A stretch of DNA of 38,380 nucleotides from the IMG/VR virus record IMGVR_UViG_3300009183_000187, positions 1-38,380 of that record; one strand, 5' to 3'. This document shows positions 7,178 to 35,018 of the stretch, in pieces. A program made the translations under genes and the position numbers. Positions within the stretch are counted from its first letter, which is position 1, and each line of letters starts with the position of its first letter. The notes beneath the pieces were generated by a model that was given only the letters and a program-made list of their open reading frames with translations, ran no database searches and had not been told where the DNA came from. The DNA comes from a virus.

Positions 7178-7974
7178 TGCAAACAAGTAAAGATTATTTT
7201 AATCTTGATAAGGTTACTTGGGGAACATATTTAGATAAACAAGGACAAACAAAAAACAATATTTTTTATAGAAAAAATAATTATGGATATCGTTGTGATG
7301 ATTTTACTAATAAACATGATAAAAAACATATTTTATTTTCTGGTTGCTCTATGACTGCTGGCAATGGATTAGAAGAGTCTGAAACATGGGCTAAAATGTT
7401 ATATGAAGAATTAAATAAAAATGATGAATATTCAGGATATTTTAATTTAGCAATCTCTGGTGGTGCGGTTATAACAATAATTCATAATATTTTTAAATAT
7501 TTTAAATTGTTTGGAAATCCAGAAGTTATTTTTTTATTGCTTCCTCCAATAGATAGAGATAATGCTTTTCATGTCAAAGATTTTTATGAACAAATATTTT
7601 TTTATAATTATTTAATGCTTGAACAATATTGTTTTTCTAACAAAATAACATTAATAACAACATTTTGGAAAGACTATCAAGATAGAAAAATTTCTTATAA
7701 ATTTTTAAAATATAAATGGTGGGCTTTGTCTCGTGAGTTTGAAAAAAAAGATATATTTAGTTGTTTTGATACAATTTTTCAACCTTTGGCTTCTGAAAAT
7801 TATACAAAAGAAATATTTAATTATTTAGAATTAAATAAAAATCATCCAAGATTATGGAATGCAAACGATGGGGACAATAGTGCTGATATTCATCCTCATC
7901 CAGGAATAGAAAGACAATACTTATGGTATAGAGATTTCAAGAAACAATATGAAGATTCTTTAACTATCTTATAA
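7177..7974 (+). CDS. SGNH/GDSL-hydrolase-like protein
   Basis: 265 residues. Block I is present as F-S-G-C-S-M-T-A-G (nucleophile candidate S58, with Cys in place of the usual Asp). The pattern N-L-A-I-S-G-G (near residue 90) resembles block II. A C-terminal D-I-H-P-H-P-G supplies the D-x-x-H dyad. SGNH enzymes are esterases or acyl-transferring enzymes, often acting on O-acetyl groups of polysaccharides. A paralogue lies at 9381-10199 with the carbamoyltransferase between, so sugar decoration is the likely context. It converges on and overlaps the carbamoyltransferase by 11 bases. Confidence 0.7.
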   Translation: MQTSKDYFNLDKVTWGTYLDKQGQTKNNIFYRKNNYGYRCDDFTNKHDKKHILFSGCSMTAGNGLEESETWAKMLYEELNKNDEYSGYFNLAISGGAVITIIHNIFKYFKLFGNPEVIFLLLPPIDRDNAFHVKDFYEQIFFYNYLMLEQYCFSNKITLITTFWKDYQDRKISYKFLKYKWWALSREFEKKDIFSCFDTIFQPLASENYTKEIFNYLELNKNHPRLWNANDGDNSADIHPHPGIERQYLWYRDFKKQYEDSLTIL

Positions 7975-9400
7975 TCTTACTATTATATTTATTTTCCCAA
8001 TTCACTATATCTTTTTCATCATTTAAAAGAGGCTGTCCTTTTATATTTAAACTTGTATTTAAAAGAATTGGCACTCCAGTTTCTAAATAAAATTTATTAA
8101 GGACCCTGTATAATCCTGGATGCTGTTTTTCATTTACTGTTTGGACTCTAGAAGTTCCATCAATATGAACAACTGATGGTGTCTCACTTGGTCTTTTACA
8201 TTTAACGGCATACTGCATATATGGAATAGATGTAGTTGGCATTTCAAACCATTTATCTGCCAAGTGTTCTAATACTACTGGAGCAAATGGTCTAAACTCT
8301 TCTCGTTGTTTTATTTTATTTACCTTGTTTTTAATCTCTGGGTCTCTTGGGTCTGCTAAAATACTTCTATTTCCAAGTGCTCTTGGACCAAACTCGGCTC
8401 TTCCTGAAGCAACTGCTGCAATTTTATTTTGTTTTAATTGTTTTAAAATTTGATCAACGGGATATGTTCCACCTAAATCATGTCCTAAGTACGGATCATT
8501 CCAATTAATATGTTTTCCATATAATGCTGCTGCTGCGCCAAGAGAACTTCCAGCGTCTCCTGGATTAGGCATAATCCAAACATTATCAAACACTTCCCAC
8601 AATTGTGTATTAGCAGAACAGTTTAAAGCACAACCACCCATAAATACTAAATTCTTTTTACCTGAAATTTGTTTAGCCTTTAGCATAAAATCAAGCAGTC
8701 TGATTTCATATACTTTTTGAACTGCTGCTGCAATGTCAAATTTATCTTGTGCAAAAATATTATAAGGCCAATCAGATATCCCTTTATGAAAATTATATTT
8801 TTGTGTATTTACATTTGGAAAATATTCTACAACTTCTTTATAGTATTTTTTCCAATCTCCATACCCTGCCATACCCATCATAATATACTCTTCTTCGTTT
8901 GGTTTTAAGCCAACCAACTGAGTAAAAGCAGAATAAAATAATCCAAAACTAAATGGATAATTTTGTTTTTCTAATAAATTAATCTTATTATTTTCTCCAA
9001 TATAAATTGATGATGTTGTCCATTCTCCAACTGAATCCAAAACTACAATAACTGCATCATCAAATTCACTTGTAAAGTATCCTGCTGCTGCATGTGAGTA
9101 ATGGTGATTAAAATTTGTTATTTTTATTTTTGATGTGTCAAATTTAGTTTTAAATTTTGGTTTCCAATCTGAACTACCGCCAAAAAGTAATCTTGATTTT
9201 TTTAACCAAGGTTTTTCATAATATGCTATTTGATCTGGATATCCATACTGAAATGCATCATCAAATAATTCTTGGCAATTGTACCAATCGTTTTTTATTT
9301 TACTATATCTTTCAGAATGCCCAGCAAAAAGTATGTTTCCATCCTCTATTAAAGATATAGATGCGTCATGGGAGGTTCCATTAATTCCAAGAATAATCAT
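7964..9400 (-). CDS. Carbamoyltransferase, NodU/CmcH family
   Basis: 478 residues. N-terminal Kae1/ASKHA-like domain with G-I-N-G-T-S-H-D (5-12), a metal/phosphate site H-H-Y-S-H-A (99-104) and later G-G-C-A-L-N-C. The C-terminal YrdC-like part has G-R-A-E-F-G-P-R-A-L-G-N-R-S and L-N-T-S-L-N. The family transfers carbamoyl from carbamoyl phosphate to hydroxyls of sugars or antibiotics. The start is ATG 9400 with AGGA upstream; a TTG three bases earlier is in frame. It overlaps the SGNH gene upstream by 20 bases (co-transcribed). It is somewhat shorter than typical NodU (about 550) but all core motifs are present. Confidence 0.93.
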   Translation of the reverse strand: MIILGINGTSHDASISLIEDGNILFAGHSERYSKIKNDWYNCQELFDDAFQYGYPDQIAYYEKPWLKKSRLLFGGSSDWKPKFKTKFDTSKIKITNFNHHYSHAAAGYFTSEFDDAVIVVLDSVGEWTTSSIYIGENNKINLLEKQNYPFSFGLFYSAFTQLVGLKPNEEEYIMMGMAGYGDWKKYYKEVVEYFPNVNTQKYNFHKGISDWPYNIFAQDKFDIAAAVQKVYEIRLLDFMLKAKQISGKKNLVFMGGCALNCSANTQLWEVFDNVWIMPNPGDAGSSLGAAAALYGKHINWNDPYLGHDLGGTYPVDQILKQLKQNKIAAVASGRAEFGPRALGNRSILADPRDPEIKNKVNKIKQREEFRPFAPVVLEHLADKWFEMPTTSIPYMQYAVKCKRPSETPSVVHIDGTSRVQTVNEKQHPGLYRVLNKFYLETGVPILLNTSLNIKGQPLLNDEKDIVNWENKYNSKIIR

Positions 9401-10199
9401 CAAAAATCCTTTCTAAAACTTTGTTGGCCCAATATAAGTTTTCACCTTTGCCTGCGTGAATTTTATCTTTTGCTATTAAGAATAAGTTATCATTTTTATT
9501 TTTTACAGAATTTAATAAAAGATAATTTTCAACTTCTTGATTAGTAATAAGAATATATTCTTGAATATTCTTTAAAAGACTATTTCCAAACACAACTAAC
9601 TCATCACGTAAAGAAAATGATTTTAAAGGTTCATAATATGCCCAACTAAACATTATAAGTTTTATATTGTTAGTTTTACAATACTCTGTAAATAATTTAA
9701 TCATATCAAAACAATACATAGTCATAGATTCCATAATAATTTTATTTTTAGCAGTTTCTTCCAATTGGATATAATTAAATTTTTCATTATGAAGAAATTC
9801 TTTTGAATTTCTTTCAGGAAGGCCAGGTCCACCTTTGCTATTAATTGGAGATAGGCCATATCCTCGCCAGCATTCTGTTAAATTTAAAACTATAATATCT
9901 GGTTTTCCATATTCATTAATATAGTTTATAGTATTTTTAATTATGCTAAAATTATTATTGCCACCAAAAGCAATATTAAAATATCCAGAACAATCAATTT
10001 TATCATTTATATAATTATAAACAATTTTACTCCAAGTATCCTCTAAAGCATTTCCGTCTCCAAATGTTTGAGAACAACCATTAAAAAGTAGGTGCATTCC
10101 TTTGTGATCTTTAGCAAACTGATCAGATCGATAAAAATAATCATTTAAATTATATTCTTTGTTTTCCCTAACTTCGTTGCTTATTGCTAAGTTTGACAA
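9381..10199 (-). CDS. SGNH/GDSL-hydrolase-like protein (paralogue)
   Basis: 272 residues from TTG 10199, the first common start codon. It has F-N-G-C-S-Q-T-F-G-D-G (S43 candidate nucleophile) and a C-terminal D-K-I-H-A-G (D-x-x-H). It shares the Gly-Cys-Ser variant with the protein at 7177-7974, so the two are paralogues. The frame remains open without a stop up to 10256, where an ATT codon sits seven bases after GGAG; the true protein may therefore carry 19 more residues. It is co-transcribed with the carbamoyltransferase. The substrate is unknown, probably a glycan ester. Confidence 0.75.
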   Translation of the reverse strand: MSNLAISNEVRENKEYNLNDYFYRSDQFAKDHKGMHLLFNGCSQTFGDGNALEDTWSKIVYNYINDKIDCSGYFNIAFGGNNNFSIIKNTINYINEYGKPDIIVLNLTECWRGYGLSPINSKGGPGLPERNSKEFLHNEKFNYIQLEETAKNKIIMESMTMYCFDMIKLFTEYCKTNNIKLIMFSWAYYEPLKSFSLRDELVVFGNSLLKNIQEYILITNQEVENYLLLNSVKNKNDNLFLIAKDKIHAGKGENLYWANKVLERIFDDYSWN

Positions 10200-10273
10200 A
10201 ATTGTTTTTGAAACAAAACGTTTTAAAGTGTGAGGAATCCAGTATTGTGTTTTAATTTATGTTCTCCAAGCCT

Positions 10274-10282
10274 AGTATATAA
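10274..10282 (-). promoter_or_regulatory. Promoter for the SGNH-carbamoyltransferase operon
   Basis: On the minus strand TATACT spans 10279-10274, and GGAG (minus 10267-10264) lies between it and the ATT codon at 10256. The rest of 10257-10376 is a very T/A-rich gap with no gene and no clear terminator. Confidence 0.5.
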
Positions 10283-10376
10283 ATTTTCTTTTTTTTAATT
10301 GTTTTCTTATTTTACACAATATAAAATAATTTTTAATTTTGTTTGTTATTTTAAAAAATAAAATTTTCATCTTTAT

Positions 10377-10808
10377 CTAATGCTTTGTAAATCTAAAAGC
10401 AGAACCATCCCATAAAGACTTTCCAAATGCAGTTTGTGTTTCATCTTGTAAACTAAAAGCACTTCCTTGCCAAATTTTATCTGCTTTATTTTTTTCACGA
10501 TTAACTATTGCACGACTCCAACTAAATCCAGCATCTCCACCCCACGCATCCCACATAATTCTTCCATTTGATGGGAAGTCTGGGCCAGAATAAAACCCTT
10601 TGCCTTTTTTATCTACTTCATGACGGGAAAAGAAAGAATACATTCTTTTAACGGTATCAAGGGACATAACAGAACCATTAACAATATCTGTTGCTCTGCC
10701 CCAACCAACTGGAGTTCCTGCGCCTGTGGCTTTTCCATCTTCTTTCCATTTAAGTGCACGTCTTGCTGCAGCCTTCATTCCAGAAGTTGGACTATATGTA
10801 TCAGCCAT
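10377..10808 (-). CDS. Conserved phage protein with RHxVDK...WGGDAG motif
   Basis: 143 residues. The core S-R-H-E-V-D-K-K (61-68), P-S-N-G-R-I-M-W-D-A-W-G-G-D-A-G (79-94) matches a widespread phage and prophage domain usually found in virion-morphogenesis regions; its biochemical role is not established to my knowledge. The C-terminus has two copies of a W-[DQ]-G-S-A-F motif (112-118, 132-138), shared with the upstream gene. The start overlaps the upstream stop (TAATG), so the pair is coupled. Confidence 0.75.
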   Translation of the reverse strand: MADTYSPTSGMKAAARRALKWKEDGKATGAGTPVGWGRATDIVNGSVMSLDTVKRMYSFFSRHEVDKKGKGFYSGPDFPSNGRIMWDAWGGDAGFSWSRAIVNREKNKADKIWQGSAFSLQDETQTAFGKSLWDGSAFRFTKH

Positions 10809-11383
10809 TACTTATTAAAACCTCTTGTATCAAACATACTTCCATCCCAAACTGATTTTGTTGCAACTGAGTTTGATTTGTATGTTCCACCACGACGCTT
10901 GTATTCTTGAACTACCCAAGAATTTGCTACTGCACTTGGATAAACGTCAAACTTATCTTTTGCTGCCTGAACAACTCTAGCATAAAGTTTTGGATTTGAT
11001 GGATCAGATCCACCACTTCTTGGTTTGATAAAATCAGCATAGTTTGGTTTCTTTGCCTTATCAATTGATTCGTAATTTTCTTCCATTTTAAACTCCTTCA
11101 TAGTCATAGTATTAAATTTTCCATCAAGATCTGGAATAGTTAGTGGATCAATTTTAGTTACTAAAGAACCTTTTACTCCAACTAAACGTTCAGTTTCATC
11201 CCAGCCATAACCTTCTTCAAATTCAAGAATACGTACTAAAACTGCTGGTTCTTCTGTTGAAGCCATTAAAGAATAATCAGAGTATTGTATTCCAAACATG
11301 CCGTCTGTCATAACATGCTGAACAATTCCAACGTAGGTTTCATCGTCACCTTGTGCAAGAACAAAATCACCTTCAGATATCAT
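10808..11383 (-). CDS. Two-domain phage protein (beta-barrel plus YPSAVANSW domain)
   Basis: 191 residues. The first 60 residues look like an SH3-like small beta barrel (G-D-F-V-L-A-Q-G-D-D). Residues about 133-165 carry Y-P-S-A-V-A-N-S-W-V-V-Q-E-Y-K-R-R-G-G, a short domain common in phage structural or host-interaction proteins. The tail has W-D-G-S-M-F (179-184), the motif repeated in the next gene. The start is leaderless: TGT-TATACT ends seven bases before ATG 11383. Likely a virion or packaging accessory; function unproven. Confidence 0.75.
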   Translation of the reverse strand: MISEGDFVLAQGDDETYVGIVQHVMTDGMFGIQYSDYSLMASTEEPAVLVRILEFEEGYGWDETERLVGVKGSLVTKIDPLTIPDLDGKFNTMTMKEFKMEENYESIDKAKKPNYADFIKPRSGGSDPSNPKLYARVVQAAKDKFDVYPSAVANSWVVQEYKRRGGTYKSNSVATKSVWDGSMFDTRGFNK

Positions 11384-11389
11384 GCTTTC

Positions 11390-11414
11390 AGTATAACATA
11401 TATTCTGCTATAAT
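11390..11414 (+). promoter_or_regulatory. Back-to-back divergent extended -10 promoters (left)
   Basis: Minus strand TGT-TATACT (-10 at 11395-11390) serves the gene starting at 11383. Plus strand TGC-TATAAT (11409-11414) serves the glycan operon starting at 11438. Only 13 bases separate the two -10 hexamers, so two polymerases cannot occupy them together. Confidence 0.75.
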
Positions 11415-11437
11415 TGTAAAACTAACGATTGGAAACA

Positions 11438-12397
11438 ATGGCTCATATTGTATTTTTAGGTAACTTTGAAGTGTCATATAGTAGTGAGAATCATCATGCT
11501 AAATCTTTAGAGTCTCTTGGCCATACCGTTTGCAAATTGCAAGAAAGAACAATTAAGGATAGTTTTGTTCTTCAGCAAGCAATGAATAGTGATCTTTTTA
11601 TATGGGTGCATACACACGGCTGGGTGACTCCTGGAAGGCTTGGAATGGGTCATGTGCTAGAAGAGTTAAAGAAGGCTAATATCCCGACAATGACATACCA
11701 TTTAGACTTATGGTTTGGTTTAGAAAGACAGAAAGACTTAGAAGAAGATGATTTTTATAAAACAATTGGGCACTTTTTTGCAACAGATAAACTAATGGCT
11801 GATTGGTTTAATAAGAACACTAATGTTAAAGGACATTTCTTACCTGCTGGGGTATATGATAAAGAGTGCTACATCCATGAGGATTATAATAAAGATGAGT
11901 TTGAGTATGATGTAATTTTTGTTGGTAGTAAAAGGTATCATCATGAACATAAATACCGTGCAGAATTAATAGACTTTTTAAGACGAATCTATGGTAAAAG
12001 ATTTTTACACGTTGGTGGAGATGGAGACACTGGAACTGTACGTGGAAATGATTTAAATAGAATTTATGCAAAAAGTAGAGTAGCAGTTGGTGATAGTCTT
12101 AACATTGATTTTAATTATCCATACTATACAAGTGATAGATTATTTGAAAGTACTGGTCGTGGTGGATTCACTATCTACCCTCGTATTAAAGGTCTTGAAG
12201 AATATTTTATTGATGGAGAAGAAATTGTTTTTTATGAGCATGGCAATCTTGAAGATCTAAAATCTAAGATAGATCAATATCTTGATGATAATTCAACAAG
12301 GGAACTAATTAGATTAAATGGTCATAAAAGAACTAAACAAGAGCATACATATGTTCATAGATGGGCAAGCATATTAGAAACTTTAAACATAAAATGA
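11438..12397 (+). CDS. GT-B glycosyltransferase, CgeB-like
   Basis: 319 residues from ATG 11438 (an in-frame TTG nine bases upstream is less likely). The C-terminal half has the CgeB/Glyco_trans_1_2 pattern: Y-A-K-S-R-V-A-V-G-D, S-D-R-L-F-E-S-T-G-R-G-G-F and G-E-E-I-V-F-Y. It uses a nucleotide sugar donor, probably in the cytoplasm, to modify a glycan or protein. It opens a six-gene plus-strand operon (11438-16632) with four-base overlaps, so the products probably act in sequence. Confidence 0.85.
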   Translation: MAHIVFLGNFEVSYSSENHHAKSLESLGHTVCKLQERTIKDSFVLQQAMNSDLFIWVHTHGWVTPGRLGMGHVLEELKKANIPTMTYHLDLWFGLERQKDLEEDDFYKTIGHFFATDKLMADWFNKNTNVKGHFLPAGVYDKECYIHEDYNKDEFEYDVIFVGSKRYHHEHKYRAELIDFLRRIYGKRFLHVGGDGDTGTVRGNDLNRIYAKSRVAVGDSLNIDFNYPYYTSDRLFESTGRGGFTIYPRIKGLEEYFIDGEEIVFYEHGNLEDLKSKIDQYLDDNSTRELIRLNGHKRTKQEHTYVHRWASILETLNIK

Positions 12398-13290
12398 AAT
12401 ATTTAGTTACTGGTGGTGCTGGTTTTATTGGGTCAAACCTTGTTGATAAGTTAATTAGTCTTGGTCACAATGTTATTTGTATTGATGATGAGTCTGCAGA
12501 ATGTCATGAACAATTCTATTGGAACGATAAAGCACAAAACTATAAGTATGACATTTGTGATTATGATTTAATTGCACCACTTTTTAAAGATATTGACTGC
12601 GTGTTTCATGTTGCATCTGATGCAAGAATACAACCAGCAATATTAAATCCTAAAAAATCTATTCAATCAAACGCAGTAGGAACAGCCAATGTTCTTGAAC
12701 TTTGTAGGGTTAACAAAGTGAATAGACTAATTTATTCAAGCACATCTTCTTCTTATGGTAAAAGGGCTTTGCTTCCAAACCAAGAAACACAATCACCCGA
12801 TCCATTAACCCCATACTCTGCTGCCAAAGTTTTTGGTGAAAACCTTGCAAGAGTTTATTACAACCTTTATGGATTACAAACCATATCCCTTAGATATTTT
12901 AATGTTTATGGAGATAGACAACCATTAAAAGGTCAATATGCGCCAGTAATAGGTTTGTTTTTAAAGCAACACGAAGAAGGAAAATCATTAACAGTGGTTG
13001 GTGATGGATCTCAGCGTAGAGATTTTACACATATATCAGACGTAGTTCAAGCAAACACTCTTGCTTCTGAAGTTGAAAATGGATTTGGCGAAGTATATAA
13101 CATTGGTTATGGAAGTAATTACGCTATACTTGATATTGCCAACATGATTTCAGATGATATTAATTTTATACCGTCAAGAATTGGTGAAGTGCAAGAAACT
13201 CTTGCGTCTAATGAAAAATTTAAACAATTAACTGGATGGGTACCAAAAGTATCATTAAAAGAATGGCTCATGAAAGGGGCAATAAAATGA
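12394..13290 (+). CDS. NAD-dependent sugar epimerase/dehydratase
   Basis: 298 residues, extended SDR family. NAD site T-G-G-A-G-F-I-G-S (6-14); catalytic S-S-T-S-S-S-Y (115-121) and Y141-x3-K145; R-Y-F-N-V-Y-G and G-D-G-S-Q-R-R-D-F-T-H for substrate binding. It resembles UDP-glucose 4-epimerase or related nucleotide-sugar enzymes. The start is ATG 12394, overlapping the previous stop (ATGA), rather than an upstream in-frame ATG. It probably supplies the donor sugar for the neighbouring transferases. Confidence 0.93.
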   Translation: MKYLVTGGAGFIGSNLVDKLISLGHNVICIDDESAECHEQFYWNDKAQNYKYDICDYDLIAPLFKDIDCVFHVASDARIQPAILNPKKSIQSNAVGTANVLELCRVNKVNRLIYSSTSSSYGKRALLPNQETQSPDPLTPYSAAKVFGENLARVYYNLYGLQTISLRYFNVYGDRQPLKGQYAPVIGLFLKQHEEGKSLTVVGDGSQRRDFTHISDVVQANTLASEVENGFGEVYNIGYGSNYAILDIANMISDDINFIPSRIGEVQETLASNEKFKQLTGWVPKVSLKEWLMKGAIK

Positions 13291-14000
13291 CAGAAATGAT
13301 CAAAGCAGTAGTTAATGGAGATTTTGAAATTATGTTACCAAAGCATCGTGCAGATAGACCTGAGTGGTATCAACCTCATGGTTGGGAAAAACTAAGACTT
13401 AAATCAATGCATGAAAACATTGGTAAAGGAGATGTTGTTTACTATGTTGGTGCAGAAGAAGGAGAAATGCCTGCTTTGTGTCAAATGTGGGGAGCAGAAG
13501 TTGTTTTATTTGAACCCAATCCAAAAGTTTGGTCTCATTTTCCTCTTTTGTGGAGTGCAAATAATTTAGAAAAACCAATCGTTTGTATACCTGGTTTTGC
13601 ATCAGATAAAGATAATAAACTTGCACGTATTTATTATAATGAATTTCCACCAGAAGCAGATGCACCAATTGAAGCAGCACATGGTTTTAAAGAACTTCAA
13701 TATGAAGCAGATAAATATGGTCAAACAAAAATTGACACACTTGTTTATGAAAAAGGAATAAAACCACCTACCGCAATTTCATTGGATGTTGAAGGTAGTG
13801 AATGGCGTGTACTTGGTGGTGCTGAAAAAACAATGAGAGAATTTAGACCAAAAATTTGGTTATCAGGTCATCCAGAATTTATGATGATGTATTGGAAAGA
13901 ATATTTGCACGATTTAAGACAATTTATTAAAGGTATTGGATATCAAGAAACTCTTATTGATTATCAACACGAGGTACATTTATTCTATGAATCAATCTAA
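13287..14000 (+). CDS. FkbM-family SAM-dependent methyltransferase
   Basis: 237 residues from ATG 13287 (four-base overlap with the previous stop). SAM site V-Y-Y-V-G-A-E-E-G, then V-V-L-F-E-P-N-P; family hallmark S-L-D-V-E-G-S-E-W with R-P-K-I-W-L-S-G-H-P-E. FkbM proteins O-methylate sugars or polyketides. Here it most likely methylates a sugar hydroxyl in the glycan made by this operon. Confidence 0.9.
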   Translation: MTEMIKAVVNGDFEIMLPKHRADRPEWYQPHGWEKLRLKSMHENIGKGDVVYYVGAEEGEMPALCQMWGAEVVLFEPNPKVWSHFPLLWSANNLEKPIVCIPGFASDKDNKLARIYYNEFPPEADAPIEAAHGFKELQYEADKYGQTKIDTLVYEKGIKPPTAISLDVEGSEWRVLGGAEKTMREFRPKIWLSGHPEFMMMYWKEYLHDLRQFIKGIGYQETLIDYQHEVHLFYESI

Positions 14001-14841
14001 TTGTTATCTATACTCTTTTAATAAAGAAGACTGTGCTGCCGATAAATGGGATTACGGTCTTCTAAAAGAAATATTTGATAACCATAACATAGAACAAATT
14101 AAAGTTAACTCTTTACCTATAACAGATAGAGCGTTTGTTGTAATTCCTGGACCACAAAATATAGGACATGAAAAACATATATCAAAAGAATTAAAAAATA
14201 TATCTAGATTAGTTTTATTTATAACAGGGGATGAAGAAGGAGTCTTTGATATAGATAGAATAGATCATCCTAATGCTGAGATTTGGATTCAATACCCTCA
14301 TAAAAAACATGAAGCATACAACAAATTGCCAGTAGGTGTGCCACAACATTTAAAAAACAATTTGCCTAATTATAAGACTAAAACATATGACGTATTTTTT
14401 GCTGGGCAGATTACACATCAAAGAAGAGAACAGTTGGCAGGGGCAATAGCATTGGTTAACAATGCCCTTTATAAGCCCACAGATGGCTTTGCTAGAGGAG
14501 ATAAGCCAATTTATTACTATGACAACCTAGCCAGTTCAAAAATTGCTGCTTGCCCTGCAGGGGCTGTATCAATTGATTCATTTAGGCTATATGAAGCAAT
14601 AGAAATGATGTCTTTGCCAATAGTAGACTTTATAGATTCAAGTGGTTTAGAGGATGATTTCTATCAACGTCTTTTTAATGAGGTAGTTCCATTTTATAAA
14701 ACAAAAGATTGGAATGAATTATCAAACATTAATTTAAAACTATTAGAAGCATATCCAAACAATATGCATACTGTGGTATGCTGGTGGATTAAATATAAAA
14801 GAGATTTTGGAATTAAATTAATGAGGCAAGTAAATGAATAA
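13987..14841 (+). CDS. Exostosin-like glycosyltransferase
   Basis: 284 residues from ATG 13987. The pattern V-F-F-A-G-Q-I-T-H-Q-R-R followed by C-P-A-G-A-V-S-I-D-S-F-R-L-Y-E-A-I (near 195-215) resembles GT47/exostosin-type GT-B proteins, where the Glu after R-x-x-E binds the nucleotide sugar. The N-terminal domain is divergent. It is coupled by overlap on both sides within the operon. Confidence 0.7.
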   Translation: MNQSNCYLYSFNKEDCAADKWDYGLLKEIFDNHNIEQIKVNSLPITDRAFVVIPGPQNIGHEKHISKELKNISRLVLFITGDEEGVFDIDRIDHPNAEIWIQYPHKKHEAYNKLPVGVPQHLKNNLPNYKTKTYDVFFAGQITHQRREQLAGAIALVNNALYKPTDGFARGDKPIYYYDNLASSKIAACPAGAVSIDSFRLYEAIEMMSLPIVDFIDSSGLEDDFYQRLFNEVVPFYKTKDWNELSNINLKLLEAYPNNMHTVVCWWIKYKRDFGIKLMRQVNE

Positions 14842-15595
14842 AAATGATGTAACAATAATTTTAGCAACATCAATTGTTCCAGATCATCCAAACACTGAAA
14901 TGATAGAAGAAACAATACATAGTATTAGAGCACACTTTCCAGATAATGAAATCATTATGCAGATTGATGGGTTGAGAAAAGAACAGTTGCATAGAAAAAA
15001 TGATTACGATGAATATAAAAATCGCATACTTTGGAAATGTTTGCATGAATATAAAAATATATTGCCAATTATTTTTGATCAGCATAGCCATCAAACAACA
15101 ATGATGAGACAAACAATAAAAGAAATACAAACATCTTTACTTTTATATGTTGAGGGAGATACACCTCTAACTCCAGATATAGAGATTGATTGGCAAAAAT
15201 GTTTAGATATGATTGAGTATGAAAAAGCAAATACAATAAGATTTCATTTTGAAGCATCTATTCCAGAACCACACAAACATTTAATGTTTAAATTAGAAGA
15301 TGGATTTTTACAAACTGCTCAATGGAGTCAAAGGCCACATCTAAGTAGGGTTTCATATTATAAAAATGTAATCTTGCCACCGCTTGATGATTGTGCTTTT
15401 ATTGAAGATAAAACTCATGGAATAATTCAAGATGACCTTTTACCTTATAATATTTTTAGTGAAGAAGGATGGGAAAAACACAAACTTTGGATATATCATC
15501 CAGAAGAAAATATTAAAAGATCATATCATTTAGATGGTCGTAAGGGTACACTTAAATATACAAGCGATGATGAGATTAGAGGATATAAAGGATGA
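14834..15595 (+). CDS. GT-A-like glycosyltransferase
   Basis: 253 residues. The N-terminus T-I-I-L-A-T-S and E-T-I-H-S-I-R fits a GT2-like nucleotide-sugar fold. L-L-Y-V-E-G-D-T-P-L (117-126) occupies the place of the usual D-x-D, giving an E-G-D variant. Family membership is therefore probable, not certain. Overlaps previous and next genes by four to eight bases. Likely cytoplasmic, acting on the same acceptor as its neighbours. Confidence 0.65.
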   Translation: MNKNDVTIILATSIVPDHPNTEMIEETIHSIRAHFPDNEIIMQIDGLRKEQLHRKNDYDEYKNRILWKCLHEYKNILPIIFDQHSHQTTMMRQTIKEIQTSLLLYVEGDTPLTPDIEIDWQKCLDMIEYEKANTIRFHFEASIPEPHKHLMFKLEDGFLQTAQWSQRPHLSRVSYYKNVILPPLDDCAFIEDKTHGIIQDDLLPYNIFSEEGWEKHKLWIYHPEENIKRSYHLDGRKGTLKYTSDDEIRGYKG

Positions 15596-16632
15596 CACTT
15601 GGAATTATTGCTAGATCTGATAATACTGGACTAGGAAATCAAACACGGGAATTAGTTAAGATGCTTAATCCCGACAAAATTTTATTGATTGACTCAGAAC
15701 ACTTCAATGGCAATGAACAACACCCAGAATGGTATAAAGATTATAATGTAACAACTACATTGAGCGGGTTTCCAACAAAACAAGAATTAATAGAATTTTT
15801 AAGAAACATAGATGTAGTGCTAAGTTGTGAAACTTTTTATAGACAAGATTTTTTACATTATGCTAAACGAAGAGGCATTAAAACAATATTACAATATAAT
15901 TTTGAATTCTTACTTAATATGTCTGTTCCAGAAGCAGAACTTCCAGATGTTTTACTTGCCCCAAGTTTATGGAATATAGATCAAATTGAAAAAATGGTTG
16001 ATGGCAGATGTAAAGTAATTCACCTTCCACCTCCAACTGATTCAACTTTGTTTGAAAATGTTAGACAAAACAATATGTCAAAAGATCATAATAGGTTGTT
16101 GCACGTTGGTGGAAAGTTTGCAGCAAAAGATAGAAATGGAACTGAAACTGTTTTACAAATGCTTAAATATTCAAAAGCAAATTATGAATTAGTAATTACA
16201 ACACAAAAGTTTCCAGAACTAAATCTAAAAGATTCAAGAGTTACAGTTGATAATAGTAACCCAGAAAATAGGGAAGAACTTTATAATGGGTTTGATGCTA
16301 TGCTTTTGCCAAGAAGGTATGCTGGCCTATGTCTTCCAATGAACGAAGCATTGATTAGTGGACTTCCAGTATTTATGACGGACATATCTCCAAACAATTT
16401 AATTCTTCCTAAAGAATGGTTAGTAAAATCTGAACACATTAATGTTTTTCAGGCTAAATCATTAATAGATGTTTATGATGGCAATCCAGAACATTTAGCA
16501 GCCATTGTTGATGAGTATATGGATAACAAAGATAAGCGTGAAATGAAAGATTCTGCATTACAAATAGGATTAAATCATTTTGCTAAAAATAATCTAGAGG
16601 ATAAGTATTTAGATCTTATCGCTCATATGTAG
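15592..16632 (+). CDS. GT-B (group 1) glycosyltransferase
   Basis: 346 residues. L-L-H-V-G-G-K-F-A-A-K-D-R-N-G-T begins the C-terminal donor domain, and L-P-R-R-Y-A-G-L-C-L-P-M-N-E-A-L-I-S-G-L-P-V contains the E-x7-E-like sugar-nucleotide motif of GT4-type enzymes. N-terminal I-A-R-S-D-N-T-G-L-G-N-Q-T is a glycine-rich acceptor loop. Last gene of the operon; its 3' end overlaps the converging gene by 17 bases. Confidence 0.85.
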   Translation: MTLGIIARSDNTGLGNQTRELVKMLNPDKILLIDSEHFNGNEQHPEWYKDYNVTTTLSGFPTKQELIEFLRNIDVVLSCETFYRQDFLHYAKRRGIKTILQYNFEFLLNMSVPEAELPDVLLAPSLWNIDQIEKMVDGRCKVIHLPPPTDSTLFENVRQNNMSKDHNRLLHVGGKFAAKDRNGTETVLQMLKYSKANYELVITTQKFPELNLKDSRVTVDNSNPENREELYNGFDAMLLPRRYAGLCLPMNEALISGLPVFMTDISPNNLILPKEWLVKSEHINVFQAKSLIDVYDGNPEHLAAIVDEYMDNKDKREMKDSALQIGLNHFAKNNLEDKYLDLIAHM

Positions 16633-27797: not shown

Positions 27798-28322
27798 TTA
27801 AATACTAACTGTATCAATTGGGCCAAGACATGATGTAGAAAACTTAATGGCAGATTGAACTGCATTAATAGATCTTTTACGAGCATCCTTTTGATTTTCA
27901 GTAGCGTATAAATGTCCTAATGCATATTGCATTCCAGATCCCATTACTAAATAATCTCCAGTATATTGTGTCAAAGACATATCTGCAGCACTATGTTCAA
28001 AAATCTTTCCTTTAACGCAAATAATCATTCCAAAATCAGAATCTTTTGATACATCTACCCACCACTCATTATAAAAATCACGAAGTTCTTTAATAAATTT
28101 AGTGTACATAAATTTTTCAATATTGTTTCCAGTTGGAATTGATGGTTTAAAATTATGTTTTATTCTATCGCCATCCATAGTTCCTGCGTATCCAAATAGG
28201 TATGGACCTTGTTGCCAAACTTTTGAGGTGGCACATTGAAGTATGATTTCATCGTCAGATACGCCTCTTTCGCCAGACATATAAATTTTTTCATCTTTGC
28301 GAACAACGACAATACAAGTCAT
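27798..28322 (-). CDS. HslV/proteasome-like Ntn-hydrolase
   Basis: 174 residues. After removal of Met1 the sequence aligns with HslV: Thr1 nucleophile (T-C-I-V-V-V-R), G16-E17 where HslV has G16-D17, and Lys33 (S-K-V-W). Also G-Y-A-G-T-M-D and G-S-G-M-Q-Y-A-L match strands of the fold. It probably forms a self-compartmentalised peptidase ring; no HslU-type ATPase is in the window. Acid D17 replaced by Glu is unusual. Ribosome-binding site GGGAG. Confidence 0.8.
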   Translation of the reverse strand: MTCIVVVRKDEKIYMSGERGVSDDEIILQCATSKVWQQGPYLFGYAGTMDGDRIKHNFKPSIPTGNNIEKFMYTKFIKELRDFYNEWWVDVSKDSDFGMIICVKGKIFEHSAADMSLTQYTGDYLVMGSGMQYALGHLYATENQKDARKRSINAVQSAIKFSTSCLGPIDTVSI

Positions 28323-29148: not shown

Positions 29149-29439
29149 TTATTTAGCCTTTTTGTCCACTGAAGAAAATGCTGCATTGATCTCTTCAATC
29201 GTGAGTTTGCCATCGTCAAGAAACCCTCTAGCCAGTCTCTCAACTACTGTTGCAACTCCTAACGTTCCAGCCAAAATAACAGCCTTTGTTGTACTAATTC
29301 CCACTACTGCTCCAGCACCTATTACAGATAGTCCTGATGCTGCAAATACCGCAACAATTCGCATAACAATATTGTTTATGCTTGCAATTGCTCCTGATCC
29401 GACTTGGGTAGCCTCTTCAATTTGTTTTGCTCTTGCCAT
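29149..29439 (-). CDS. Small two-helix membrane protein (holin-like)
   Basis: 96 residues. Hydrophobic segments about 25-48 (I-V-M-R-I-V-A-V-F-A-A-S-G-L-S-V-I-G-A-G) and 50-66 (T-K-A-V-I-L-A-G-T-L-G-V-A-T), followed by a short acidic/basic tail. Ribosome-binding site AGGAGG lies inside the preceding gene. Either a second holin or an anchor working with the adjacent PA14 protein. Confidence 0.65.
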   Translation of the reverse strand: MARAKQIEEATQVGSGAIASINNIVMRIVAVFAASGLSVIGAGAVVGISTTKAVILAGTLGVATVVERLARGFLDDGKLTIEEINAAFSSVDKKAK

Positions 29440-29441
29440 TT

Positions 29442-29621
29442 TTATTCCCTCCTATTTCTGATCGGACTTGTAATTATCCAAAGAGCAGTTGTTGCTATGA
29501 TTCCATAACCAACAATAGTCTTTGCACTTCCGTCCAGAACAACCCAAGCAATAAACATACCGAGAAGGGTCCATGCTTGGTCTACCATATCCTTTAAGAT
29601 ATTTTTTATTATTCTTACCAT
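29442..29621 (-). CDS. 59-residue single-pass membrane protein
   Basis: ATG 29621 to TAA 29444-29442. A basic start, then hydrophobic stretches L-L-G-M-F-I-A-W-V-V-L and I-V-G-Y-G-I-I-A-T-T-A-L-W-I-I. An overlapping frame of similar length is a shadow. It overlaps the PA14 gene's stop and abuts the next holin-like gene, so the three are co-transcribed. Holin or antiholin is possible. Confidence 0.7.
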   Translation of the reverse strand: MVRIIKNILKDMVDQAWTLLGMFIAWVVLDGSAKTIVGYGIIATTALWIITSPIRNRRE

Positions 29622-31723
29622 CTTCTTCCTCCTCTTGAACCTGGTGAATTGGCTCCTCCGCCTCCGCCAGAACTTCCTCCGCCACCTGTGCTACCACCTG
29701 TGGCTCCCCCTGCTGCTACTGCTGCTGCGTTAATTGCAGCACCTGTTGCTACAACTGTTGCTACAACCATATCTGTTGCTTCTTCTCTTTCTTCTTTAGT
29801 CATATCAGCACCAATGCTTCCAAGTGCTGCTAATGCTGCTCCTGGATCAGTAAATGCTGCTGTTAATAATGCACCTGGATCTTGAACTAATTCAATATTT
29901 GCAGCAACTTCTGCAGTAATAACTAATGCATTTCCATTTTCATCTGTACGAACTTCAATTGGTGTTTCAGGTGGTAGGTCTGCATATGAGACTCCAGATG
30001 CCTTAACTTGTTCTGCTGATATTGATTCTCCAGGTTTAAGATTTTCAATTAATGCCTCAACAAGAATTTCTTTTTGTTCTTCAGTTAATTCTTTTCCATC
30101 TTTTGCTTCTTCAAGTATTTCTTTTAATTCTTCTTCAGCAGCCTTTTCTTCTTCTGCCTCAACAGCCTCTGCTTCTGCAATTTCCGCTAACTCTTCTGCA
30201 ATTTCTGCTTCTTCTTCTGCTATGGCTGCCTCCGCTTCTGCTTTAGCATTTTGTATTTCTTGTTCCATAGCCTCTTGTTCAGCAACAATTCTATCTGCTT
30301 CTGCTTGAGCATTTGCTTCTTCTTGTGCATCTGCTTCTTCTTGTGCAATACGGTCTGCTTCTGCCTGTGCTTCTGCTCTCATCTGTGCCTCTATTGCTTC
30401 AAGTTCTGCTGCTATACGATCTGCCTCTGCATTTGCATCAATCTCTGCCTGTATCCTTGCTGCCTCTTCAGCCATTTCTGCTGCTTCTTCTGCTAATTTT
30501 GCAGCAAGTTCTGCTGCTATTCTATTTGCTTCTGCATTGGCTGCAGCAAGGGCTGCAAGTCTGTTTGCTTCCGCCTGTGCTTCTGCTGCTTGTTGTGCAA
30601 TCATTGCTGCTGCTTCAGCCTGTATCCTTGCTGCTTCTGCTTGTTGTGCAGATGCTTGGGCTGCTACTTGTGCTGCAATTGCTGATGCTTGATCTGCTGC
30701 TGCTTGTGCATCGATGATTGCTTGGGCTGCTGCTGCAGCCTGTGCTTGTGCAGCCACTGTTGCCAACCTTATAGCCTCTTCTTCTGCAGCAATGGCTGCT
30801 AGTCTTGCATTTTCAGCATCTATAATTGCTTGCGCTGCTGCTTGTTCTGCAGCAATCTCTTCTGCAGTCTTACCAATTTTTAATGTAACAACGTTTGAAT
30901 TTGCAGAATACAAAGAAAGAGTATCGTTATCTGATCTAATATGAAATGACCAAACCGTACCGCTTGGTTTTAATCCTTCTAATAGTGAGTGACTAATTGT
31001 TATTGTTGTGTTAAGAGAGTTAGGTCCACCAACATTTCCAGTTGCTATTCCCCATCCCCCGCCATCTGCGCTAAAAGAAATAGCATATCTTTCTGGTTGT
31101 GTATTGCCAGTATCAGGCGCTTCCCAGGTTAATACTGTTGAAGTTTCACCATCAACTACAGTTAAGTTTCTTGGAGCACCTATAGTTAGGGATGCTTGTG
31201 AAGTAAAGGCTTCTGCTGGAATAATTTGCATTGACCCAGATTGATTCCAATATAGGAAAACATTTGCTCCCCCACCATTTTCGTAATACATTAATTCTAT
31301 AGTTTTAGGAACCCCTGCTGTAAAAGAAACTGGAGCACTTGTAGTTCCTCCGCCACCCTTATCACGCCAGTCATTTGTTATTAAAATTCCATCAAGATAT
31401 AGTTTAGTTCCATCATCTGCTGTTGCTAAAAATGATATGTCTTGGGTAGTATTACTAAGTATTGATCCAGTAAATTTTACAATGACATCTTCTGAAGGTC
31501 CTCCAAGAACACTTCCACTACCCCATTGAAGATTAATGTTAGGTACAGTTGTTGTAAGTATTGGAGAGGCTCCTTGTGGAATATATGGAGCATTATTTTG
31601 ACCTTGTACACTGTAAACTTGAGCAGTTAATCCTTCTGCAGCATGGGCTTTGTCTGAGTGCCCGAAAAGTAAAGACCCTACGACAAGGCCTAAAACAATT
31701 AACCCTCTAAATAATTTTTTCAG
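29615..31723 (-). CDS. Secreted PA14/FN3/coiled-coil fibre-like protein, CTG start
   Basis: 702 residues if started at CTG 31723; with ATG 31291 only 558. The CTG start gives a perfect signal peptide (K-K-L-F-R, L-I-V-L-G-L-V-V-G-S-L-L-F, cleavage after A-H-A, residue 28), then a PA14 carbohydrate-binding domain (about 30-175, with T-A-D-D-G-T-K-L-Y-L-D-G) and FN3 (about 180-285). A long Ala/Glu coiled coil (290-500) and a Gly-rich tail follow. No ATG, GTG or TTG is in frame between the upstream stop and 31291. GGAG lies eight bases before CTG. Likely a surface or adhesion protein. Confidence 0.8.
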   Translation of the reverse strand: MKKLFRGLIVLGLVVGSLLFGHSDKAHAAEGLTAQVYSVQGQNNAPYIPQGASPILTTTVPNINLQWGSGSVLGGPSEDVIVKFTGSILSNTTQDISFLATADDGTKLYLDGILITNDWRDKGGGGTTSAPVSFTAGVPKTIELMYYENGGGANVFLYWNQSGSMQIIPAEAFTSQASLTIGAPRNLTVVDGETSTVLTWEAPDTGNTQPERYAISFSADGGGWGIATGNVGGPNSLNTTITISHSLLEGLKPSGTVWSFHIRSDNDTLSLYSANSNVVTLKIGKTAEEIAAEQAAAQAIIDAENARLAAIAAEEEAIRLATVAAQAQAAAAAQAIIDAQAAADQASAIAAQVAAQASAQQAEAARIQAEAAAMIAQQAAEAQAEANRLAALAAANAEANRIAAELAAKLAEEAAEMAEEAARIQAEIDANAEADRIAAELEAIEAQMRAEAQAEADRIAQEEADAQEEANAQAEADRIVAEQEAMEQEIQNAKAEAEAAIAEEEAEIAEELAEIAEAEAVEAEEEKAAEEELKEILEEAKDGKELTEEQKEILVEALIENLKPGESISAEQVKASGVSYADLPPETPIEVRTDENGNALVITAEVAANIELVQDPGALLTAAFTDPGAALAALGSIGADMTKEEREEATDMVVATVVATGAAINAAAVAAGGATGGSTGGGGSSGGGGGANSPGSRGGRRW

Positions 31724-31738
31724 TTCCCTTTCTCCTAG

Positions 31739-31768
31739 GTCAACATTGTTGACTATTATATTATAACA
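31739..31768 (-). promoter_or_regulatory. Extended -10 promoter with 15-base palindromic operator
   Basis: Minus strand TGT-TATAAT (-10 at 31765-31760). The perfect palindrome GTCAAC-ATT-GTTGAC (31739-31753) sits at the expected transcription start and is operator-like. It controls the CTG-start gene. Confidence 0.6.
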
Positions 31769-32438: not shown

Positions 32439-35018
32439 TTACTTCTTTTGTAGTTTTGCTACTGCTTTAGTCAATGCATTAACAGACTTCATCAATGATG
32501 CAATCTGTGTAGTCAAAGAATCGATCAAGGTTGCAACTGAAGCCTGCAAAACAGTTACCTGTGTTGCAAGAGCCTTAACTGCTGCGTTTGCAGTTGCTAC
32601 GTCAGCCTTGACTGCTGTTACGTCAGTCTTGACAGATGTCACTGAATCAATAACGTTAACTGCTGGAAGAGATACGATTGCAATTGCAGTGCTTTCTCCT
32701 TTAGCAAAACCAGTTACTGGAGTGTCTGCTACATCTACTGACTGTGCAATAGTTACAAGGGATGCAATGATTCCAGCATCTGCAACTTTTCCATCAAAAG
32801 ATTGTAATATTGCAGAGGCATTTCCATTAGCATCGGTTACTGCTGAAGTTGAAGTTACTCCGTTGCCAAAGATTCCCTTAGAATCAACTGCAAAGTTAAC
32901 GCTAATTCCTTTAACTGGATTTCCCCAACCATCTTTAACAGTTGCAGTTACTTTTCCACTAGCAGTTGTTAATGTAATGTTTCTTGCTGTTGTTGCAACT
33001 GCATCATTAACCGTAAAGGTTGCAGTTTGTGTCAATCCTCCACCAACAACAGTTACTGTTGCAAGTCCAGGTTTGGTTCCAATTGCTGTAAATTCTTGTC
33101 CGCTTCCGATAGTAACAGTCTTCAAATCTCCTGTTAATGGACGAACGGTAGGTGCAGAAGTTCTAAGAACAACTCCTTCAGATGCAGTAACAACAAGTGC
33201 TACTCCAGAGACAGAAGTTCCTGAAGCATTCTTTAATGATGTTGCAATAGTTACTGCAGATGCAGTTCCTGCTGTTGTTGCTTGAACATCTTTTAATACT
33301 TTAACAGTCTCTGTGCTTCCACCAGTTAGTGTTAGTGATGCATATGATCCCGTTGCAGAATAGGTAACTGTAAGAACATTTGCAGATGTTAGCAGACCAG
33401 TTGAAGTTCCTGGCGCAGTAACCTGAATGGTCAATGCATCAACAAAGTTTGTTGTTGAAGTGCTTGAATCTTTAAATGTAATTGTTGCATCTCCATTAAT
33501 ATCAGTAACTGAAGTTGCAATTGTTGTTCCAAAGTTTCTGCTTGAAGAAGACAATGTTCCAGTAACAAAATAATATTGCTGAGCAGTGTCAAAGTTATTC
33601 TTTACATTAATCTTAAGGCTTGTGGTATCTCCACTTTTAACTACAGAGTTTGTAATTGATGCACTTAATAGTGATGTAGAAATTCCAGTTGTTCCTAATG
33701 CACCTTGAGAAACTGAAGGAGCAGTATAGGTAACTGTAACAACAGAGTTTCCTGTTGCTAGGGCAACTGTAATTGTGAATGATCCACTAGCAGTAGTAGC
33801 AGAAGTAACATATGTTCCAATTCCATTCGTTCCAATAACTACTGGATATGTTCCATTTGTAATTCCAGCAACGCTAGAAGATGTAATCTTAGCATTAACA
33901 ATCGATCCTGCTGTTCCACTAATTGACCAACCAAGTGTTGATGCAGAAGAGGTGCTAGCAAAATATGTTGTTGATGTTGGTGTTTCAATTGCAACTGGAG
34001 CAACATACTTAACTGTAGATGTTGAAACTCCGATAGCACTTGAAAGAGCAACCTTTGTTGCAGTTGCTACTGGATTTGTTGTAAATGTTACGACTTTGGC
34101 AACTGATGGAGTTAAAATTCCACCCAAGTTAAATGTAAGAGCAGAACTTGTTGAACCACTGTGCTTAGCATGAAGATCATAAGATCCTGTTGATGCTGTA
34201 AGTGAGTCTGTTGACTCTAAGAATGTGTTTGTTGTTGGTGTTCCAGATCGTGAAGCAGTTGTTAAAACACTTCCTGGAGCAGTTAACTTACCTTTTGTTA
34301 CCGTTAACGTTTCCGTTGATCCAACTGCAATAGTTGAAGAAACTGTAATTCTTTCTAGAGAATTACGAAGTAGTGTTGGAATACCATTGGTATCTTTAAG
34401 TGTAATTCCAAGATCAACTGAAACATCTCCTGCTGTTACTAAAGAAGAAGAACTTGTTTCTAATGAAACTGGAGTTCCTCCGACCTTAACATCTGCAGTA
34501 AAGTAAGCCTCTCCACCATCAATGGTTGAATTTCCGCCAATTGTGTTTCCCACATTGTCAATCCATAATAAAATCTTATATGTTCCTGGAGTTCTAAATG
34601 CATTTGACAAAACGCTTACAGAATCAACCGTAACTGTTTCATCACTTCCGCCTAGAACAACAGTTGCTGCAGTGTTGTTTGATAAAGTTGCAAGAGCCAC
34701 AAGAGTGTCTCCAACTGTAATTTGAGTTGTTGCATCAACTGTTACTGGTGTTGGATTTGAAATAATACGACCACGAACAGTTACTGTCTCGCTTGCTCCA
34801 GATGTATCTGAAAGAGCAATCATCGATACAGAGACCTTGTTATCTGCTGCAGTTGCTGATGCAACGCCATTAGATAATGATGATGAACGGTTTGGAACGG
34901 TATCTACTGATAGAATTCCAGTAATTGCTGCATTGGCTGGGGCTGATGTAATTACAGACACTCCAGACAGGGCAAGCGCACTAACTGCTGTAACAGCAAT
35001 CTTTTTAAATAAGTTCAT
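32439..35018 (-). CDS. Large secreted surface-layer-like repeat protein
   Basis: 859 residues from ATG 35018 with AGGAG upstream (open frame to 35039). Signal peptide L-F-K-K-I-A-V-T-A-V-S-A-L-A-L-S, cleavage after A-N-A. The body is Thr/Ser/Val/Ala-rich beta-strand repeats (Ig/invasin-like, with V-K-D-G-W-G-N-P-V-K-G-I typical of such folds), no cysteine seen. The C-terminal 80 residues form a coiled coil (V-K-T-D-V-T-A-V-K-A-D-V). It resembles abundant cell-surface proteins of Actinobacteria. Strong promoter and terminator suggest high expression. Confidence 0.8.
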   Translation of the reverse strand: MNLFKKIAVTAVSALALSGVSVITSAPANAAITGILSVDTVPNRSSSLSNGVASATAADNKVSVSMIALSDTSGASETVTVRGRIISNPTPVTVDATTQITVGDTLVALATLSNNTAATVVLGGSDETVTVDSVSVLSNAFRTPGTYKILLWIDNVGNTIGGNSTIDGGEAYFTADVKVGGTPVSLETSSSSLVTAGDVSVDLGITLKDTNGIPTLLRNSLERITVSSTIAVGSTETLTVTKGKLTAPGSVLTTASRSGTPTTNTFLESTDSLTASTGSYDLHAKHSGSTSSALTFNLGGILTPSVAKVVTFTTNPVATATKVALSSAIGVSTSTVKYVAPVAIETPTSTTYFASTSSASTLGWSISGTAGSIVNAKITSSSVAGITNGTYPVVIGTNGIGTYVTSATTASGSFTITVALATGNSVVTVTYTAPSVSQGALGTTGISTSLLSASITNSVVKSGDTTSLKINVKNNFDTAQQYYFVTGTLSSSSRNFGTTIATSVTDINGDATITFKDSSTSTTNFVDALTIQVTAPGTSTGLLTSANVLTVTYSATGSYASLTLTGGSTETVKVLKDVQATTAGTASAVTIATSLKNASGTSVSGVALVVTASEGVVLRTSAPTVRPLTGDLKTVTIGSGQEFTAIGTKPGLATVTVVGGGLTQTATFTVNDAVATTARNITLTTASGKVTATVKDGWGNPVKGISVNFAVDSKGIFGNGVTSTSAVTDANGNASAILQSFDGKVADAGIIASLVTIAQSVDVADTPVTGFAKGESTAIAIVSLPAVNVIDSVTSVKTDVTAVKADVATANAAVKALATQVTVLQASVATLIDSLTTQIASLMKSVNALTKAVAKLQKK

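Follow-up and report, generated by a model that had tools for sequence, protein, structure and literature searches.

A phage gene for an exported protein with PA14 and fibronectin type III-like (fn3) domains is, judged from its sequence and conservation, translated from a CTG codon at position 31723, and weak start codons, most often ATT, are the rule for this gene across the phage family. The start site is well supported by the evidence set out below. We consider it fairly likely that weak initiation of the secreted protein is maintained by selection, and we infer that the reason is probably to hold it below a membrane partner encoded by the overlapping next gene. The window, by which we mean the whole 38,380-nt stretch analyzed (record IMGVR_UViG_3300009183_000187), was taken for phage DNA in an earlier sequence-only reading. 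This was borne out by its large terminase, which matches those of large Streptomyces phages over the full length with 53–54% identity and, when taken with phage DSL-LC01, suggests actinobacterial hosts.

A CTG Codon Opens the PA14 Gene

The minus-strand CTG at 31723–31721 begins a 702-codon frame, closed by TAA at 29617–29615 (Table 1). The sequence-only reading had described a frame open for 144 codons upstream of the obvious ATG, free of ATG, GTG, and TTG as far as the CTG, and both coordinates and frame were confirmed: of the three codons, the first to appear in frame is ATG 31291 (codon 145), and gene finders restricted to these codons would truncate the gene, as had been predicted. The GGAG noted eight bases before the CTG is part of an AGGAG at 31736–31732, with a gap of 8 nt. 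The product begins with LKKLFRGLIVLGLVVGSLLFGHSDKAHA followed by AEGL, a typical Sec signal peptide with cleavage after KAHA. By eye, it consists of a basic region (LKKLFRG), a hydrophobic core (LIVLGLVVGSLLF), and a GHSDKAHA segment with the A-X-A site, in agreement with the A-H-A ending first proposed; the same basic, hydrophobic, and A-X-A pattern is seen by eye in relatives with other signal peptides. After the signal peptide come, in order, the PA14 domain, the fn3 domain, a long stretch rich in Ala and Glu, and a tail rich in Gly.

Table 1. Positions of the PA14 Gene, Its Leader Elements, and the Overlapping Membrane-Protein Gene in the Window
Feature	Position	Strand	Basis or remark
Extended -10 promoter element TGTTATAAT	31760..31768	-	Sequence; TGnTATAAT before the PA14 gene in most relatives
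Inverted repeat GTCAAC-AAT-GTTGAC, predicted stem-loop at mRNA 5' end	31739..31753	-	Begins at the 7th base after the -10
Shine-Dalgarno AGGAG, 8 nt 5' of start	31732..31736	-	Sequence
CTG start codon	31721..31723	-	Same position is ATT, TTG, rarely ATG or GTG in relatives
Secreted PA14-fn3 protein gene, 702 codons	29615..31723	-	Sequence
Signal peptide, residues 1–28, ends KAHA	31640..31723	-	Sequence and conservation across relatives
PA14 domain, residues 57–166	31226..31555	-	Pfam PF07691, above cutoff
Fibronectin type III-like domain, residues 183–253	30965..31177	-	Pfam PF00041, below cutoff
Ala/Glu-rich region, probably helical	30044..30865 (limits approximate)	-	Sequence
Shine-Dalgarno AGGAGG of the membrane-protein gene	29628..29633	-	Within the final codons of the PA14 gene
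Membrane protein, 58–59 aa, ATG start, overlaps the PA14 gene end	29442..29621	-	Conserved next gene; proposed partner

The product scores 24.2–26.5 bits against PF07691 (cutoff 24), which all 16 of 16 family members match, and 22.5–23.8 bits against PF00041 (cutoff 25), which 13 of 16 match at E < 0.01. The PA14 part is related in sequence to the solved structures 6qe7 (RsgI3), 6qdi, and 6m8m (Lap adhesin), with E values of 2e-27 to 2e-8, and contains an Asp-Asp-Gly that is invariant in the family; by analogy with what is known of PA14 domains, it likely binds glycan. An AlphaFold prediction from 16 aligned sequences reached a mean pLDDT of 54, too poor for a fold search. ATG 31291 falls within PA14, as had been noted, and a product begun there would lose the signal peptide and most of the domain; the claim that the CTG start completes PA14 therefore stands, but the missing part is larger than the half that had been estimated.

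Relatives are 77–90% identical to the window protein over the signal peptide, PA14, and fn3. The dN/dS ratio is 0.11–0.25 over the first 40 mature codons and 0.21–0.58 over the signal peptide, and because nucleotide changes are thus mainly synonymous, the segment 5' of ATG 31291 is under protein-level selection. All relatives that share the nearest leader type have the identical CTG (27 loci with duplicates, representing 9 distinct leaders), and it recurs in independent assemblies. Since it is shared by all of these relatives, a sequencing error can be excluded, and none of the relatives combines an out-of-frame ATG with a frameshift.

Weak Start Codons Are the Family Rule

Two scans of viral contigs yielded 160 loci, a count in which many contigs appear twice. 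The start was located at each locus from its distance to the mature protein and the Shine-Dalgarno (SD) site, with four loci left unresolved. Among 65 distinct leaders, the start codon is ATT in 39, TTG in 14, CTG in 9, ATG in 2, and GTG in 1; 48 leaders thus have ATT or CTG, and 17 have ATG, GTG, or TTG, the last an accepted canonical start. The start always lies 26–30 codons before the mature protein, with the SD 5–9 nt away, and is followed by basic residues, as in the typical ATT leaders AAGGAG-TTAAAG-ATT-AAAAAG and AGGGGG-AAGAGGT-ATT-AAAAAA. The family therefore has a conserved start outside ATG, GTG, and TTG, with a properly spaced SD and coding sequence directly after it. The sequence-only reading had called a CTG start unusual and had proposed comparing start codons and PA14 among relatives. 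The CTG itself holds, and weak starts prevail in the family; PA14 is found in 16 of 16 members.

The 65 leaders are interrelated rather than independent and form about 8 clusters by the segment 5' of the SD. The tree of the mature domain requires a minimum of 18 changes of start codon, and ATG is involved in 2. Many of these changes are probably recombination swaps of a whole leader–signal-peptide block, and it is itself notable that newly acquired blocks also carry a weak start. Three family members have ATG or GTG, so the weak start is not essential. We note that the region upstream of the PA14 gene in L116 and L117 is without a clear SD and has an ATG 7 bases past TATAAT; these members may have switched to leaderless initiation at that ATG.

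Start Codons of Other Genes in These Phages

As a control, a simple caller based on codon usage and SD, and blind to the start, was applied to the window and ∼300 kb of three related phages. ATG opens 367 of the 424 genes called in the four phages, GTG 19, and TTG 17. The convincing rare starts (away from contig ends, backed by a good SD, and called with a clear margin) were those of the PA14 gene in three phages and ATT 10256 of the window; in the fourth phage, the PA14 gene starts with ATG. Most other rare starts in the raw calling were dismissed as lying at piece edges or having tiny margins. The ATT at L176:13290 is ambiguous, with an in-frame GTG just after TATAAT that may be a leaderless start; this possible leaderless gene of a related phage (L176:12853–13302, minus strand) has its GTG directly after TATAATAATAAG. 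The window gene at 9381–10256 (minus strand, 291 codons) is perhaps a second ATT-started gene: GGAG lies seven bases before ATT 10256, the first TTG comes much later and without an SD, and the sole relative found, in L164, is 73% identical and also has ATT at the start.

The membrane-protein gene that follows the PA14 gene starts with ATG in 29 and TTG in 2 of 31 distinct copies, and AGGAGG or AAGGAGG precedes it in 24 of the 31. The difference in ATG use (2/65 for the PA14 gene versus 29/31) gives a Fisher p of 7e-20, which serves as a guide only, the copies being related. Most genes behind the same extended -10 promoters likewise start with ATG.

These counts bear on neutral drift of the start codon, in which a strong promoter and SD would make the codon nearly irrelevant and near-cognates would be tolerated. 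Drift would fit the good SD in all leaders, the five kinds of codon, and the few members with ATG or GTG. However, ATT, CTG, TTG, and GTG each lie one substitution from ATG, which is yet nearly absent, and the neighbor, whose SD is equally strong within these genomes, uses ATG in 29 of 31 copies; most other genes likewise use ATG. We consider drift unlikely.

The Membrane-Protein Neighbor and Surrounding Genes

The 58-aa membrane protein is strongly conserved in relatives. In DSL-LC01, L183, and L184, one long protein with a signal peptide and the same type of Ala-rich part and Gly/Ser tail ends in a similar membrane segment at its C-terminus, and a profile comparison gave E 1e-5 and a probability of 82%. 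Because the segment is fused to the C-terminus in these distant relatives, the PA14 protein and the 58-aa membrane protein are probably physical partners. In L182, which is close to DSL-LC01, the membrane segment lies in a separate overlapping gene, yet the large gene starts with ATG, which contradicts the idea that a weak start always accompanies a separate membrane gene. L184 has a AAAGGAGG-type site before an in-frame ATG at the membrane segment, which may also be made alone. DSL-LC01, L182, and L184 all have ATG starts, and the weak start is therefore limited to the low-GC family of the window and does not extend to the wider set.

Several other genes of the window deserve mention. The PA14 operon is flanked by a phage Hsp20 (31911–32327, minus strand) and an HslV-like protease (27798–28322, minus strand). 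A second large signal-peptide protein (32439–35018, minus strand; 859 aa, ATG start) with a Big_1-like domain and a C-terminal coiled coil sits between the terminase and Hsp20, and G008 and G002 have similar secreted proteins at the corresponding position. The window protein resembles a surface-layer protein, and a scan of bacterial and archaeal genomes found no relative of it. On the 3' side of the membrane protein, a small protein conserved in relatives (29149–29439, minus strand) looks membrane- or holin-like (IVMRIVAVFAASGLSVLGA); its family is called nuclease by PHROGs. A cluster at 7964–16632 encodes a Nol-like carbamoyltransferase, a nucleotide-sugar epimerase, and a glycosyltransferase, and perhaps modifies surface sugars or DNA.

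The Weak Start Codon and Its Possible Purpose

The PA14 gene places a weak codon behind a good promoter and SD, and its overlapping neighbor an ATG behind a strong SD. The sequence-only reading had suggested that the CTG could limit translation, an idea strengthened by the family rule, under which the codon would act as such a limit. In the mechanism that we propose, the host ribosome would initiate at the weak codon with fMet, IF3 would reject many initiation attempts at the noncognate CTG or ATT, and the start would be inefficient. The secreted protein would thereby be made at a low, set level with the membrane partner in excess, and the partner would hold it at the cell surface, where PA14 would bind glycan. 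That selection actively excludes ATG in the family, setting the ratio of surface protein to membrane partner through host IF3, is an attractive possibility on which we lean slightly toward doubt, and we regard just as tentatively its component that a weak start (ATT, CTG, or TTG) is kept after a change of leader and signal peptide. If true, a whole virus group would be setting protein stoichiometry at the level of translation by its choice of start codon. A weak start would also suit limits on export load, toxicity of excess protein, or timing toward lysis.

A related alternative makes the weak start a sensor, with translation rising when IF3 is scarce relative to ribosomes during infection and the protein timed to late infection or lysis. 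The IF3 control of the AUU start of infC and the GUC start of sigR (PMC5472188) provides precedent, and the neighbors of the gene in G002 include a CHAP endolysin and small membrane proteins. Against this, IF3-mediated induction has not been shown even for sigR, and no IF3 homolog was found in ten contigs of these phages; the sensor seems to us an improbable account. An odd initiator tRNA was also considered and rejected: the tRNA-Met genes in two relatives are without the initiator GGG/CCC anticodon stem, and G001 has a CTG start but no tRNA-Met. With the PA14 part as query, no host relatives were found in bacterial and archaeal genomes.

Leader Elements and Other Routes into the Frame

TGnTATAAT is present in nearly all PA14-gene leaders and also before many other genes of these phages. 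With the mRNA 5' end placed from the -10 only, the predicted start, 7 bases beyond the -10, coincides with or adjoins the foot of the stem-loop in the main leader types. The stem sequence varies by leader type (combined p 2e-5 over 8 clusters, some of which are not significant by themselves), and similar 5' stems before some other genes leave a hairpin specific to the PA14 gene unsupported. A 5'-terminal stem-loop stabilizes the ompA mRNA, and by analogy the leader stem-loop could do the same here.

The CTG-type leader contains a tiny upstream open reading frame, ATG TTG ACC TAG, and the L099 type a different one; as a common feature it was rejected, being absent from some leader types. These short ATG frames are what would favor frameshifting from an out-of-frame ATG, or re-initiation once the tiny frame has been read, but in the commonest ATT-type leaders the stretch from the predicted mRNA start to the ATT is free of ATG, no slippery site was seen, and the SD spacing is normal, so that we find either route highly unlikely. 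Initiation at a downstream codon such as ATG 31291, the first standard start codon, with the upstream frame untranslated, deserves almost no credence, since the product would have a truncated PA14 and no signal peptide, while the upstream codons are under protein-level selection, PA14 is conserved at the identity given above, and SD and spacing suit the CTG.

Comparison with Known Systems

To our knowledge, very few well-characterized bacterial genes have conserved starts outside ATG, GTG, and TTG (infC and sigR). In the open-access literature searched, we found no phage family whose ATT or CTG starts are conserved; one isolated CTG open reading frame is mentioned there for phage phiB124-14 (PMC3338817). 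The class of mechanism is already known, and its family-wide use in phages, with drifting weak codons and near-absent ATG, did not turn up in that literature. The family offers dozens of natural leader variants that differ in start codon and are otherwise alike, a ready series for asking why weak starts persist. In practical terms, a secreted protein in a widespread freshwater phage group has its start cut short or lost in automatic annotation, so that its signal peptide and a domain go unseen.

Among proteins, a close parallel in layout is WJZ48438 of DSL-LC01, which shares the signal peptide, fn3, and Ser/Gly tail and whose C-terminal membrane segment resembles the separate 58-aa protein; it differs in its ATG start, in the fusion of that segment, and in an fn3 only 45% identical. 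The DSL-LC01-type relatives L182 and L184 carry PA14. The PA14 domains of RsgI3 (6qe7), 6qdi, and the Lap adhesin (6m8m) are related, but these are cellular proteins of other architectures.

Escherichia coli infC, which encodes IF3, likewise has a conserved ATT start with a good SD, but there the start serves IF3 autoregulation, whereas the phage product is not an initiation factor. In Streptomyces, sigR has a GTC start behind an extensive ribosome binding site and is repressed by IF3, its overlapping partner rsrA is made in excess from its own ribosome binding site, and changing the sigR start to any canonical codon unbalances the pair (PMC5472188). The phage operon differs in that it encodes a secreted and a membrane protein and uses ATT, CTG, and TTG rather than GTC; IF3 control, reported for sigR, is a proposal for the phage gene. 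What the two share is an overlapping gene pair whose first member has a weak start behind a strong SD, a partner gene with its own SD, and an actinobacterial setting, here the likely host class as we infer it.
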